A stretch of DNA of 64,000 nucleotides from Mycobacterium barrassiae (GTDB taxonomy: Bacteria > Actinomycetota > Actinomycetes > Mycobacteriales > Mycobacteriaceae). The stretch covers positions 763,535-827,534 of the forward strand of contig NZ_JACKUK010000023.1 in NCBI RefSeq assembly GCF_025822765.1. Reading direction: 5' to 3'. Within the stretch, counting starts at the first letter, position 1. Every line of letters starts with the position of its first letter. The notes below the pieces were generated by a model that saw only the letters and a list, made by a program, of their open reading frames with translations, had not been told where the DNA came from and ran no database searches. Both the position numbers and the translations under genes were made by a program. Below, in pieces: positions 44,756-61,363 of the stretch.

Positions 44756-46465
44756 TCACGGCAGCGGCGCACTCCACGTCAACTTGGTGCCACCGGTCGG
44801 CATCGGTTCGACGATGAACGACCCGCCCACCTCTTCGGCGCGCTTGCGCAGGTTCCTCAGCCCGCTTCCGGTGATCTCCCCCTCGATGCCGCAGCCGTTG
44901 TCGGTGACCTCGATGGTCAAGTCGTCCCCGACCCCGACGCTGACCGCGATCGAGGCGGCCTGAGCGTGCCGGACGGCGTTGCTCACAGCTTCTCGGACAA
45001 CGGCTTCGGCGTGGTCGGCGAGCGTCGCGTCGACCACCGAAAGCGGTCCCGTGTATTGCACAGTGGTGCGAATTCCTGCGGTGGCGAACTGGGCGACGGC
45101 TTCGTCGAGCCGCTGGCGTAGCCGGGTCACTCCGGATGACGACCCGTGCAGGTCGAAGATCGCCGTCCGGATGTCCTGAATCACCTGTTGCAGGTCGTCG
45201 ACGGATTCCATCAGTCGCTGCTGCACTTCCGGCGCCCGCGCCCGCGGGATGGTGCCCTGCAGCGCGAGGCCGACTGCGAACAGCCGCTGGATGACGTGAT
45301 CGTGCAGGTCACGGGCGATGCGATCGCGGTCGCTAAGGATGCTCAGCTCCCGCATCTGGCGCTGTGCGCTGGCCAGCTGCCAGGCCAGAGCGGCCTGGTC
45401 GGCGAAGGCAGTCATCATGTCGAACTGGTCGGAACTGAACCGCGGCGCCCCGACCGGTCGCAGCGCGACCAGCACGCCGGCAACTTCGTCGCTGGCGCGC
45501 AAGGGTAGCACCAGCGCCGGACCAGTCTCCGTCGCATCCAGCACGATACGGTCGAACCGGCCGGGTATGCGCTGGCGGAATGCCTCTCCGATCGGTGTTC
45601 CCTCCACCGGTACGGATTGCAGCGACTCCCCAGTGCCGTCCCCAGAGATCGCGGCGACGACGAGCTCGGTCGTCTCGGTGACGGGCAGATCCGCGTCAGC
45701 TGGAACGGCGACCAGCGTCAACTGGGCACCGCTGAGATGCCGAGACTCGTCGGCGACCATCCGGAACACCGTGGCGGGATCGGTCCCCGCCAAGAGCTCG
45801 GTTCCGATATCGCGGGTCGCCTCGATCCACGACTGTCTGGTCCTGGACTGTTCGTAGAGCCGGGCGTTGTCGATTGCGATGCCCGCCGCGGCCGCCAGCG
45901 CTTGGACCAATACCTCGTCGTCCTCGCTGAACGGCAGCCCGTCCGCCTTCTCCGTCAGGTACAGGTTTCCGAACACCTCGTCGCGAGTGCGCACCGGTAC
46001 GCCGAGGAACGTTCGCATGGGCGGATGGTTCGGGGGGAATCCGACCGACGACGCGTGGTGGGAAATGTTGTCCAGGCGAATCGGTTTCGGATCGTCGATC
46101 AGCACCCCGAGTACGCCACGGCCCTCCGGTAGGTGGCCGATCAACTCACGCGTCTGCTCGTCGATGCCTTCATAGATGAACTCGACCAATTCGTGGTCGT
46201 GGCCACGTACGCCGAGGGCGCCGTACTGGGCATCGACGAGCTCGATAGCCGTGTGCACGATCGTCTTCAGGGTCTCATCGAGTTCGAGACCCGAAGTGAC
46301 GACCAGCATCGCCTCGACCAGACCGTCGAGGCGGTCTCGACCTTCGACAATCTGCTCGACGCGCTCCTGTACCTCTGTGAGCAGCTCCCGCAGCCGCAAC
46401 CCCGAAAGGGTTTCACGCACCCGCGGCGCGCGTGGCTCAGCGCTCGCCCCCGGCCCATCGGTCAC
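44756..46465 (-). CDS. DevS/DosT-like haem GAF sensor histidine kinase
   Basis: A 569-residue two-GAF sensor kinase very similar to DevS (DosS) and DosT. The first GAF domain (about 60-200) contains His147 in [10 protein letters not shown], matching the haem-ligand His149 of DevS and His147 of DosT, and Tyr169 in FGNLYL, matching the DevS distal tyrosine. The second GAF lies at about 225-365. The HisKA_3 box [12 protein letters not shown] has phospho-acceptor His388, and the ATPase part has [12 protein letters not shown] and TDNGCGIEG. It should sense O2, NO, CO or redox state and activate a DevR-like regulator, which is not encoded nearby. It starts at a GTG at 46465, just after an 11-base tandem repeat. 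Confidence 0.92.
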
Positions 46466-46489
46466 CGCCTCATCGTCTCACCGGGCTCG

Positions 46490-46511
46490 CTTAATGTCGG
46501 CTTAATGTCGG
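46490..46511. promoter_or_regulatory. Tandem 11-base direct repeat upstream of the DevS-like gene
   Basis: CTTAATGTCGG occurs twice in direct succession (46490-46500 and 46501-46511), 25 bases before the start codon. A period of one helical turn is typical of sites for OmpR/PhoB-class regulators, but no regulator is known for it. Confidence 0.4.
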
Positions 46512-46565
46512 CGATTCCGGAAGCCAATGGACGAGGCTGGGCGGTTTTTCCAGCTCACGTTGAAG

Positions 46566-47264
46566 TCAGCTGCCCTGTGCGGCCTTGTCTCCTTCGCGGA
46601 GGTCCTGCGACATATCGACCGTGACGTGGTCTTGACGCAGGCGTTGGGCACGGTCGCGGATGCCCCGCATCATCTTCTGCTCCATCACGAAATGAGCGAT
46701 ATCGAAAACCGGATGTCCGCAAACTCCGCCACTGCCCCGAACGAGCAGACGGGTCCACGCGTTCTGTCGACGAAGACAGAACGCCCATGCACCCGAGGCC
46801 TTCTCGCCGCGCTGCAGGCGCCCGAAATCGGCCGGTGACACCAACACCAGGTGTGAATCCTGCTCGACGGCCGCAACCACCTGCCTGGCCGCGTCGCCGT
46901 ACCGCCGGGCGAGCCAGACGCTGTCGCCGACGCGGACGTCCTGCCACTCGGGGTGGATGGTGTCCGCGTTGGTGATGTGTGAGCCAACGGCCCGTTCCAA
47001 CGGCCAATAGCTGTAGAAGCCACCGCGGTCTTCACCAATTTGCGCTATCCACGGCCAGACGGCCTGCAGGGGCGCGTCGATGGTCAGTGCCCGCGTCGTG
47101 CGTATGGTCCCCGGCGCCACGAATTCATCTCCCGGCAAGGTGGCCGCGACTTCATCGTCGTCAGCACCCCACGTGTAGATCCGGGGCCGCACGCCGGCTC
47201 GGTACATCGTGATGATGCCGACCACAGCCATCAATGCGGCCAGCCACCGGCGCTGTTTGCCCAT
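46566..47264 (-). CDS. SRPBCC-superfamily protein, membrane-anchored (paralogue 1)
   Basis: A 232-residue protein. The first 20 residues (RRWLAALMAVVGIITMYRAGV) form a likely amino-terminal anchor. The rest is an SRPBCC/START-like domain: TTRALTIDAPLQAVWPWIAQIGEDRGGFYSY, then NADTIHPEWQDVRVGD. The same pattern, DAPxxAVWPWxxQxGxDRGG then HPEWQ, occurs in the gene at 51884, so the two are paralogues. SRPBCC folds bind lipids or other hydrophobic ligands; no ligand is known for this group. The start faces the KAS III gene across a 107-base promoter holding a DosR-box-like dyad, so hypoxic control is plausible. Confidence 0.8.
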   Translation of the reverse strand: MGKQRRWLAALMAVVGIITMYRAGVRPRIYTWGADDDEVAATLPGDEFVAPGTIRTTRALTIDAPLQAVWPWIAQIGEDRGGFYSYWPLERAVGSHITNADTIHPEWQDVRVGDSVWLARRYGDAARQVVAAVEQDSHLVLVSPADFGRLQRGEKASGAWAFCLRRQNAWTRLLVRGSGGVCGHPVFDIAHFVMEQKMMRGIRDRAQRLRQDHVTVDMSQDLREGDKAAQGS

Positions 47265-47296
47265 ACGCCGACGCTAGAAATGCGTACGCACACGGC

Positions 47297-47316
47297 GAAG
47301 GGCCGAAGGTCCCCAT
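47297..47316. promoter_or_regulatory. DosR-box-like dyad between SRPBCC and KAS III genes
   Basis: The core GGGCCGAAGGTCCC (47300-47313) matches 11 of 14 core positions of the DosR consensus GGGACTWWAGTCCC. Over the full 20 bases it matches 13. It lies 33 bases from the SRPBCC start (47264) and 56 from the KAS III start (47372). Confidence 0.6.
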
Positions 47317-60542: not shown

Positions 60543-60547
60543 GGCAA

Positions 60548-60553
60548 CCTCCT
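60548..60553 (-). promoter_or_regulatory. Consensus ribosome binding site for the FadD15-like gene
   Basis: AGGAGG on the reverse strand, five bases before the ATG at 60542. It confirms that the repeat-encoded amino-terminus is translated. Confidence 0.8.
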
Positions 60554-60670
60554 AGGAGCGTGCCTCGACTAGACGAAAGGTGATCCGCCCGCTCCGACGA
60601 GTCACGGCAGCACTCGACCTCGATTCTGCGACCCCCGCGCAGGGGCGGGTAGCCCACTGAGTCCCTTTCG

Positions 60671-60690
60671 GCAGGGCCGAACGGCCCTAT
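60671..60690. promoter_or_regulatory. DosR-box-like palindrome upstream of the FadD15-like gene
   Basis: AGGGCCG-AA-CGGCCCT (60673-60688) is a perfect palindrome apart from its AA centre. The core matches 10 of 14 DosR positions (GGG, C, AA, G, CCC). It also closely resembles the 47300 box. Confidence 0.4.
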
Positions 60691-60702
60691 CTCCCCACGC
60701 CG

Positions 60703-61363
60703 TCACCCGATTACGGGCAGTCGGCGTTTGCGCGCCAGCGCAACCATCGCGTGCTGCATCACGGCGCGCACGTGTGCGTCGACCCTTCGCACGTCGGGGT
60801 CGTCACCGAACTCGGCGGCGATGTCGATCGGGGGGCAGCACCTGGGTGACGATCTTGGTGGGCAGTGGAATGTTGATCGGCAACACCACGCTGAGGCCGA
60901 ACGGGAAACCGATCGTGACCGGAAGGATATTGGTGCGGAGGGAGGTCGGCCGGTAGACGTCGTAGTCCCCGCCGGGGAAGACCAGCACCAGGCCACCGGC
61001 CGCGAGGGCCTCGGATGCGTGCTCGGGGGTGGCCCGGATGACACCGGTTCGCTCGAGGAACCCGGCCGCCGGTCCGCGAAACAGGTTGTCGTGGGCTAGC
61101 GCGTAGAGCGGCCGCTCGTATCCGAAGGTCTTGTAGTAGTCGACGGCAATCACCGACATGTCGACGGTGACGAGCCCACCCGAATGATTGGCTACCATCA
61201 GCGCGGCCCCGGGCGGGACGTGCTCCAAACCCAGAACCTGTGACCGGAAGTAGGTCTTCACAATCGGGCGCTGCAGGTCCACGAAGCGTTGCGTCAGACC
61301 CCGATCCCACTTCGCCGCTACCGAAGGTTCGTCAGCCGTTCGTCCCACGTCATCGTGGTGCAT
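60703..61363 (-). pseudogene. PlsC-like acyltransferase, frameshifted near the C-terminus
   Basis: A lysophospholipid acyltransferase-like gene read in two frames. The first (61363 to 60803) has the acyltransferase motifs NHSGGLVTVD and LVFPGGDYDVYRP and ends in an unrelated DRHRRRVR tail. The second (ending at 60703) continues the protein naturally as PPIDIAAEFGDDPDVRRVDAHVRAVMQHAM, ending in VIG. The switch falls at a run of six G (60830-60835, C on the coding strand); one base fewer restores a single protein of about 219 residues. It may be a sequencing or assembly error, a recent mutation or a slippage-controlled gene. An acyltransferase beside WS/DGAT genes would fit glycerolipid synthesis. 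Confidence 0.8.

Follow-up and report, generated by a model that had tools for sequence, protein, structure and literature searches.

A DosR-type dormancy island of 33 kb (C23:808.3-841.2 kb, right edge at approximately C23:841180), in which several homologues of known DosR-regulon genes are gathered around the genes of a soluble HoxFUYH hydrogenase, was identified in the genome of Mycobacterium barrassiae. The assignment, made from the nucleotide sequence, is supported by homology (including a sequence match for Rv1738), by the enrichment of DosR-type boxes and by the distances of these boxes from start codons. This environmental mycobacterium probably carries two or more DosR (DevR) regulon islands of a kind known from M. 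smegmatis; the locus would be one of them and probably works as proposed below. It begins within the analyzed window (the whole stretch of 64,000 nucleotides of contig C23) and continues for 13.6 kb beyond its end, where PfkB, OtsB1-type, nitroreductase, FdxA-type and stress-protein-type genes are located (locus L034); the gene-by-gene pairing of the latter with Rv numbers, like the other Rv pairings used here apart from Rv1738, is our assumption. The initial annotation of this DNA had recognized a dormancy island of 17 kb. Its DosR type and the genes named in it proved real, but the true extent is twice as large.

Sensor kinase and devR

A haem sensor histidine kinase of 569 aa with the domain order GAF-GAF-HisKA_3-HATPase is encoded at 44756..46465 (minus strand), as identified by Pfam, a PDB match and individual residues. 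This domain order agrees with the haem sensor kinase of DevS type that had been annotated here, but the residues and PDB scores are those of DosT. The GAF-A domain is nearer to DosT (2vzw, 267 bits) than to DevS (2w3d, 224 bits), and the alignment revealed the DosT residues: proximal His147, distal Tyr169 and Gly85, the last of which occupies the position of Glu87 in DosS. The kinase is predicted to be of DosT type and not of DevS type, and is the sole match of its type found in the genome (E 1e-10, above weak kinase matches). The devR gene is present (PDB 3c3w, E 2e-115; C23:475748-476395) at a distance of 332 kb. No kinase gene adjoins it, and neither of the marks of a DevS (DosS)-type kinase (Glu87, a gene beside devR) was found.

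Genes between the kinase and the hydrogenase

Two open frames, SRPBCC-1 (46566..47264, minus strand; 232 aa), on the same strand as the kinase gene and 100 bp upstream of it, and SRPBCC-2 (51884..52579, plus strand; 231 aa), carry the labels of the earlier annotation, in which they were described as paralogues. In relatives (L045, L082) the two hit the same places, and they are therefore paralogues, as described. Neither was matched by Pfam or NCBIfam at E 0.001, and SRPBCC-2, searched against the PDB, matched nothing but protein kinase C, and that poorly (best E 0.0024).

The other annotated genes of this region were also confirmed. The KAS III pair corresponds to FabH-like ketosynthases at about 47372-49328 (Pfam, NCBIfam, PDB). 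KAS1 (47372..48472, plus strand; start codon uncertain) has Cys, His and Asn aligned where the catalytic triad is expected; in the shorter partner, KAS2 (48456..49328, plus strand), the Cys aligned pairwise and the His and Asn did not. Of the two proposed DosR-regulon homologues, that of Rv1738 (51420..51704, minus strand; 94 aa; PDB 4wpy, E 8e-40) lies 27 bp upstream of the second gene, on the same strand. The latter encodes a phosphoribosyltransferase/erythromycin-esterase fusion of 681 aa (49348..51393, minus strand; Pfam), which we take to be of Rv2030c type. A pyridoxamine-phosphate-oxidase-like protein (PNPOx) is encoded at 52610..53044 (minus strand; PF12900, E 2e-29), with the ATG at 53044 assumed to be its start.

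Hydrogenase and lipid genes

The annotated soluble hydrogenase was confirmed as a set of hox genes at 53117-58228 (Pfam, NCBIfam, PDB), all on the minus strand: (i) a HoxW-type maturation protease (53117..53599; TIGR00072 over cut-off), (ii) HoxH, the [NiFe] large subunit (53596..55077; Pfam), (iii) HoxY, the small subunit (55093..55683; PF01058 in the enclosing frame, start inferred), (iv) HoxU, the iron-sulphur subunit (55707..56423; Pfam and NCBIfam HoxU/NuoG matches, below the HoxU cut-off, start inferred), and (v) HoxF with an N-terminal NuoE-like domain (56420..58228; profile matches). The large subunit matched 5xf9 with 447 bits, 7t2r with 427, a methyl-viologen-reducing enzyme with 359 and SHI with 95. 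The HoxF, U, Y, H set, with a large subunit nearest to NAD-reducing enzymes, places the enzyme in group 3d (the group names 3b and 3d being used as we assign them). HoxH gave just 107 bits with the group 3b profile NF040832, and no 3b-type match was obtained in this genome at E 1e-60. A hypD gene is also present. Two separate acquisitions of Hox were considered: the HoxH tree contains two supported mycobacterial clades but is still compatible with one origin.

The acyl-CoA and WS/DGAT genes of the annotation were all identified on the minus strand: an AMP-dependent acyl-CoA ligase (58584..60542; profile matches, nearest to FadD11 but below cut-off), a PlsC-type acyltransferase whose frame is apparently interrupted (60803..61363; PF01553 and sequence), WS/DGAT-type acyltransferase 1 (61804..63177; profile matches) and WS/DGAT-type acyltransferase 2 (63174..64000; profile match, L034), which runs past the window end. 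As defined by the break points of the blastn alignment, the closest relative (L091) lacks here the segment 58294..61762, which contains FadD, the acyltransferase and the frame of a small membrane protein.

Distribution of group 3b and 3d hydrogenases in the genus

In one sample of 297 genomes of the genus, searched at E ≤ 1e-60 among at most five scored candidates per genome, 3d enzymes were detected in 30 genomes and 3b enzymes in 117, while only one genome contained both (11.8 expected by chance). The neighbourhoods were compared for 27 mycobacterial hox loci (from 29 other genomes, with G008 and G278 left out), 20 of the 117 3b loci (those chosen had strong matches and long contigs, and G281 was added) and 13 control loci drawn from 11 hox genomes and from no 3b genome. 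DosR-type neighbours are present at 21 of the 27 hox loci, five of which (L093, L096, L100, L104, L108) were counted on OtsB, PpsA or WS/DGAT matches alone, and absent at six; they accompany all 20 3b loci and none of the 13 controls. All 27 hox loci of other phyla contained hox genes only. From this pattern we lean towards the view that the DosR islands of mycobacteria contain a slot for a hydrogenase, which has been occupied time and again by one of two distantly related, mutually exclusive NAD(P)-linked enzymes, 3b Hyh or 3d HoxFUYH.

It is possible, if rather doubtful, that the near-exclusion of 3b and 3d reflects ancestry or the limits of detection and no single shared role. In the rpoB tree of 80 of the 297 genomes, drawn from those with a listed rpoB place (15 of 30 hox, 42 of 117 3b, 23 with neither), both labels are clustered, and in the ancestry-controlled test the exclusion is not yet significant, as the five independent pairs are unable to reach 0.05; the thresholds of the survey and its five or fewer candidates per genome also limit detection. 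However, Hox changed at least five times on supported branches, with 3b genomes nearby (G109/G234; G135 beside G043 and G288), none of the independent pairs goes the same way, and in the lone genome with both enzymes the 3b gene carries two stops.

Candidate DosR-type boxes and the genes they precede

The scoring matrix was built from 43 sites, all of them in the hox loci of relatives; it is independent of this genome, of L091 and of the 3b loci. Three strong candidate boxes were detected in the interval of the initial annotation. GGGACCTTCGGCCC (47300..47313, minus strand; 21.9 bits), a perfect match to GGGACYTNNGNCCC, lies 36 bp ahead of SRPBCC-1 and precedes the likely KAS1 start by about 58 bp. 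GGGACTTCGGTCCC (51763..51776, minus strand; 16.4 bits), a perfect match to the published core, lies 59 bp before the Rv1738 homologue, and GGGACTACCGGCCC (51834..51847, plus strand; 17.1 bits) 37 bp before SRPBCC-2. All three occur at the same place in L091. A moderate box, GTGACTTTTGGCCG (53081..53094, minus strand; 13.0 bits), is found 37 bp before PNPOx; its site and score are identical in L091, and a one-mismatch form precedes PNPOx in L092 and L099. The dyad GGGCCGTTCGGCCC (60674..60687, minus strand; 10.8 bits), 132 bp before the ligase, is weak and near background (0.066 sites per kb at ≥10 bits in control loci) and is probably not a functional box; it was dropped as a driver of FadD and hox. 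The four DosR-like dyads of the annotation were given without coordinates; the matrix places three strong, one moderate and one weak site in its interval. A 12.3-bit site at 44412 lies within an MlaE-type frame and was left out of the box count.

No strong box was present in the 400 bp upstream of hoxF in this genome (best 6.8 bits) or upstream of hoxF in L091 (5.2 bits), nor was one found upstream of the FadD and WS/DGAT genes, the best site before FadD being the 10.8-bit dyad. Across the 27 hox regions, a strong box precedes hoxF in five (L094, L095, L098, L104, L117) and is lacking in 22, compared to 0.5% of 4,000 random windows, and the pattern search placed a one-mismatch site ≤500 bp before hoxF in 4 of 26 loci, compared to 0 of 25 non-mycobacterial ones. 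A search for a conserved hoxF box by pattern, alignment and matrix yielded a GTGACCAAMTGCCCT-like element in several loci of one clade, 51-100 bp upstream of hoxF and with 7.1-9.8 bits (below the cut used), and none elsewhere. Direct DevR control of the hox or lipid genes is not supported for this genome. Their annotated role as dormancy members lacks a strong box here, but the neighbourhood and the relatives suggest that they may belong to the regulon of the island.

It is unlikely that the DosR cluster is real and the hox and lipid genes are passengers, acquired in a recombination-prone region and otherwise regulated, with Hox oxidising H2 to yield NADH. The boxless hoxF would fit such a history, as would the 3.5-kb segment with FadD, situated between hoxF and WS/DGAT 1 and missing in L091, and the HoxH relatives with up to 79% identity in Pseudomonadota and other phyla; Hox enzymes are, moreover, reversible. 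Against it stand the DosR-type neighbours themselves, which accompany most mycobacterial hox loci in changing order and no control, and the fact that Hox and the DosR-linked 3b enzyme are almost never found in one genome.

Enrichment of the boxes

The 20-base M. tuberculosis DosR consensus, in the form that we assumed for the scan, gave no matches with up to 3 mismatches, and GGGACNNNNGTCCC with ≤2 mismatches occurred 28 times in the whole window, below the 67 expected. After this consensus and the loose dyads had failed, the published M. smegmatis consensus and then the matrix were adopted; the Y at position 6 of the motif was picked after sites had been seen. Enrichment is observed solely with the shorter mycobacterial consensus. 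The 33-kb island contains 8 boxes with ≤1 mismatch (1.34 expected, P 8e-5) and three of the seven perfect sites of the genome (P 1e-5); two of the three perfect sites for the published core GGGACTTNNGNCCC in the genome list are also located there (P 1.4e-4). The island and the devR locus are enriched in comparison with the rest of the contig. A comparison with the rest of the genome had been put forward as a test that could refute the annotated island; for that interval alone the enrichment is modest with ≤1 mismatch (3 boxes, 0.68 expected, P 0.03), with two of the seven perfect sites (P 2e-4).

At ≥13 bits the matrix detected 69 sites in the 20 3b loci (0.173/kb) and 4 in the 13 controls (0.015/kb). 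The true motif gave 47 sites in the hox loci and 9 in the controls (reversed motif: 16 and 10); since the training sites came from hox loci, the hox-locus count is not independent. A T follows the core in a proportion of 0.60 of the 57 collected sites. Although the failure of the full consensus, the unenriched loose dyads and the choice of training sites by a similar pattern could be taken to mean that the dyads arose by chance in intergenic DNA rich in GC, next to merely adjacent genes free of DosR regulation, this is very improbable given the enrichment in the island and devR locus, the site density in the unseen 3b loci, the T at a position unused for selection and the spacing of 36-59 bp before start codons.

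Comparison with known systems

In M. smegmatis, the cluster msmeg_3926-3955, which is induced by hypoxia, includes a [NiFe] hydrogenase and lies near devR/devS (PMC2799521). Homologues of M. tuberculosis DosR genes there likewise accompany a hydrogenase, Hyd3 (Hyh, group 3b), that is soluble, NAD(P)-linked and of [NiFe] type (PMC2799521, PMC8125079), and a second, smaller devR cluster is located elsewhere, as here. M. barrassiae differs in having HoxFUYH (3d-like) for 3b and a DosT-type kinase 332 kb from devR. The contrast drawn in the annotation with the scattered M. tuberculosis regulon holds, but the grouping of DosR genes with a hydrogenase had already been described for M. smegmatis (PMC2799521). 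What looks new, as judged on open-licence literature, is HoxFUYH (group 3d) in place of group 3b.

The M. tuberculosis regulon is described as nine blocks, including Rv2003c-Rv2007c and Rv2028c-Rv2032, and the block list in that source names no Hox hydrogenase (PMC5309233). Homologues of Rv1738, DevR and DosT (Rv2027c) are common to both species by sequence, and PfkB, OtsB1-type, nitroreductase, FdxA-type and stress-protein-type genes are also shared; M. tuberculosis has DosS besides DosT. M. spongiae is likewise reported to have an orthologue of DosR and, in the absence of DosS, a DosT-like kinase, but its hydrogenase is given as group 1h (PMC11361433). With other HoxFUYH enzymes (group 3d; PDB 5xf9, the best structural match) the subunit set is shared, whereas here the genes lie in a mycobacterial dormancy island, beside HoxW and PNPOx.

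Proposed mechanism and implications

A drop in oxygen would activate the DosT-type kinase, which would phosphorylate the distant DevR. DevR would then bind the boxes before SRPBCC-1, the putative Rv1738-Rv2030c operon, SRPBCC-2 and PNPOx and, beyond the window end, before pfkB-otsB1, ppsA, nitroreductase and stress-protein genes. The SRPBCC-1 box may also drive the kinase gene, giving a positive loop. HoxFUYH, matured by HoxW and Hyp proteins, would vent excess NADH as H2 during the respiratory block, a role proposed for the M. smegmatis group 3b hydrogenase (PMC2799521, PMC8125079, PMC4109961).

With DosT as the only kinase of its type found, and perhaps a feedback loop that runs through a DevR box, the island offers a system whose study requires no dangerous pathogen. 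If the hydrogenase slot is real, its repeated refilling with a distantly related enzyme would amount to evidence from nature that hypoxic mycobacteria have a basic need to shed reductant as H2, and would account for which species carries which enzyme; many environmental mycobacteria would then share hypoxic H2 venting, by either enzyme, as a conserved task of their dormancy programme.

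Gene content of the island

The initial annotation of the M. barrassiae genome (G000; 5.90 Mb, 49 contigs, completeness 99.98%; window, C23:763535–827534) had placed a probable dormancy island at window positions 44756–61363. Genes in this interval are arranged as kinase, SRPBCC-1, two FabH-like genes, Rv2030c-type fusion, Rv1738 homologue, SRPBCC-2, PNPOx (pyridoxamine-phosphate-oxidase-like protein), HoxW, HoxH, HoxY, HoxU, HoxF, acyl-CoA ligase and acyltransferase, with a MlaE-type permease gene to the left. The island extends beyond the window into the stretch L034, to approximately C23:841,180. 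The genes of L034 encode, in order, the remainder of a second WS/DGAT, a universal-stress-type protein, a trehalose-phosphatase/GH65 fusion (TIGR00685 above cut-off), a PfkB-type kinase, a PEP-synthase-like protein, two nitroreductase-type proteins, a further stress-type protein and a ferredoxin; two of these names come from a profile scan and the remainder from reading of the sequence. We take these genes to be the counterparts of M. tuberculosis blocks Rv2003c–Rv2007c and Rv2028c–Rv2032. Both blocks appear in the list in the accessible part of PMC5309233.

A second DosR-type locus, at C23:466–478 kb, encodes DevR (PDB 3c3w, E = 2e-115), with stress-protein, nitroreductase and WS/DGAT-type genes as neighbours; no kinase gene adjoining devR was found there. 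The GC content dips to 0.60–0.61 at window positions 52001–56000, around PNPOx and hox, and a comparable dip at 26001–28000 shows that this is not unique.

The FabH-like pair (window 47372–49328) consists of KAS1, with Cys-His-Asn, and KAS2, without the aligned His and Asn. Since PqsC is among the PDB matches to KAS1, a PqsB/PqsC-like heterodimer is suggested. The pair recurs near both hydrogenase types, i.e. at HoxFUYH (3d) loci L039, L040, L045, L082, L091, L092, L097–L099 and L101, and at loci L145 and L150 of the 3b (Hyh/Hyd3) type.

DosR-type boxes

With up to one mismatch to GGGACYTNNGNCCC, a motif whose Y was picked after sites had been seen, 46 distinct sites were identified on contig C23, 33 of them outside both the island and the devR locus. 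The 33-kb island contains 8 sites, compared to 1.34 expected from the rest of C23 (P = 8e-5), and the 12.5-kb devR locus 5, compared to 0.51 (P = 2e-4); no 33-kb stretch of C23 clear of both has more than 5. The enrichment also holds for the originally proposed interval by itself, but is weaker there (3 sites, P = 0.03). Three of the 7 perfect sites genome-wide are inside the island. The published core with T (PMC6448022, partial text) is matched perfectly by 3 entries of the genome list, two of which also fall within the island.

A weight matrix was built from 43 sites of relatives, with this genome and L091 (the locus of the closest relative) left out; it detected 10 island sites at ~13 bits or more: 6 in L034 and 4 in the window (47300, 51763, 51834 and 53081; 36, 59, 37 and 37 bp upstream of start codons, respectively). 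No such site was found in window positions 1–43000; the background in this segment plus 13 control stretches from hox genomes was 0.013 per kb. T directly follows the core at a frequency of 0.60 in 57 collected sites, T not having been a selection criterion.

Sensor kinase

The kinase had been labelled DevS-type, a designation that was not upheld: for its GAF-A domain, DosT (2vzw) is the better match at 267 bits, ahead of DevS (2w3d) at 224 bits. In DosT numbering it has Gly85, His147 and Tyr169. Gly85 of DosT corresponds to Glu87 of DosS, a position proposed to decide stable oxygen binding, in a review whose available part calls the results disputed (PMC4082495). No other gene of the genome matches strongly: the five remaining hits are weak kinase matches with 26–32% identity. 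A DosT-only set has likewise been reported for M. spongiae (PMC11361433, in part). As the kinase gene lies 100 bp after SRPBCC-1 on the same strand, the predicted box at 47300 may drive it.

Hydrogenase and lipid genes

HoxH matched NAD-reducing hydrogenase 5xf9 best (447 bits), followed by 7t2r (427), the methyl-viologen-reducing enzyme (359) and, far behind, sulfhydrogenase 1 (95); its closest named relatives are from mycobacteria, e.g. Mycolicibacterium tusciae and M. sphagni. A HypD gene is present at C23:179 kb and a further [NiFe] large subunit is encoded at C23:170–172 kb. HoxH proteins of Achromobacter ruhlandii and a Halomonas (L049 and L050) are identical over the aligned part, suggesting recent hox transfer between distant bacteria.

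No box was found upstream of hoxF (best 6.8 bits; 5.2 in L091) and no site of at least 8 bits upstream of WS/DGAT 2, and the ligase and acyltransferase genes lie on a 3.5-kb segment that separates hoxF from WS/DGAT; direct DevR control of the hox and lipid genes is therefore not supported in this genome. In L091, hoxF comes directly after WS/DGAT, with a 16.7-bit box ahead of WS/DGAT. Strong boxes (at least 13 bits) precede hoxF in 5 of 27 mycobacterial loci, compared to 0.5% of 4,000 random control windows.

The acyltransferase frame (window 60700–61363) is apparently interrupted near a G run, by sequencing error or a real break. Judging from apparent WS/DGAT remnants at L091:15193–15416, where M. 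barrassiae has WS/DGAT 2 (window 63174 to L034:1253), the lipid part of the island looks to be undergoing reshuffling.

Hydrogenase loci across species

DosR-type neighbours were scored as DevR, DevS, Rv1738, Rv2030c, Rv2004c, nitroreductase, stress protein, PfkB, OtsB, PpsA, FdxA, PNPOx, FabH pair and SRPBCC; MlaE, FadD, PlsC, Ddn and Tgs1 matches, present in 4 of 13 controls, had been excluded beforehand as too common. At least one neighbour, in varying gene order, occurs at 21 of 27 mycobacterial hox loci, 5 of which depend on OtsB, PpsA or WS/DGAT alone and one (L107) on PNPOx plus an OtsB match of 28%. None was found at L102, L103, L109, L114, L115 and L117 (L102, L103 and L117 being cut by contig ends) or in the 13 controls, and in a set of 54 hox loci all 27 from outside Actinomycetota have hox genes only. 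Boxes with up to one mismatch number 47 in hox loci (0.094/kb) versus 9 in controls (0.035/kb), compared to 16 and 10 for the reversed motif.

Among 297 genomes of the genus, DevR is encoded in 271, a 3b-type large subunit in 117 and the 3d enzyme in 30 (M. barrassiae included). Only one genome, G281, has both, versus 11.8 expected (Fisher P = 5e-6, ancestry ignored), and its 3b large-subunit gene contains two in-frame TAG codons. The island around this gene is still of DosR type and includes DevR and a DevS-like gene (L162; G281:C1:3732200–3752100). An rpoB tree of 80 genomes requires 8 hox changes, of which at least 5 fall on branches with support; in 5 independent pairs (200 random pairings) 3b was opposite in a mean of 3.7, the same in none and without difference in 1.3, which is too few for 0.05. 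DosR-type neighbours are present at all 20 fetched 3b loci (of 117), and the matrix, blind to these loci, detected 69 sites of at least 13 bits in 18 of the 20 (0.173/kb), versus 4 in 3 of the 13 controls (0.015/kb).

According to the available parts of the respective papers, low oxygen induces M. smegmatis clusters msmeg_3926–3955, containing a [NiFe] hydrogenase, and msmeg_5241–5246 (PMC2799521), Hhy and Hyh belong to the Dos regulon of this species (PMC8125079), and its Hyd3 has been proposed to couple H2 evolution to NAD(P)H reoxidation (PMC4109961). No report of a HoxFUYH–DosR link in mycobacteria was found in the accessible portion of the open-licence literature. Given the hypoxia-induced hydrogenase cluster of M. 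smegmatis, the kind of island described here is already known, and that of M. barrassiae is a variant of it.
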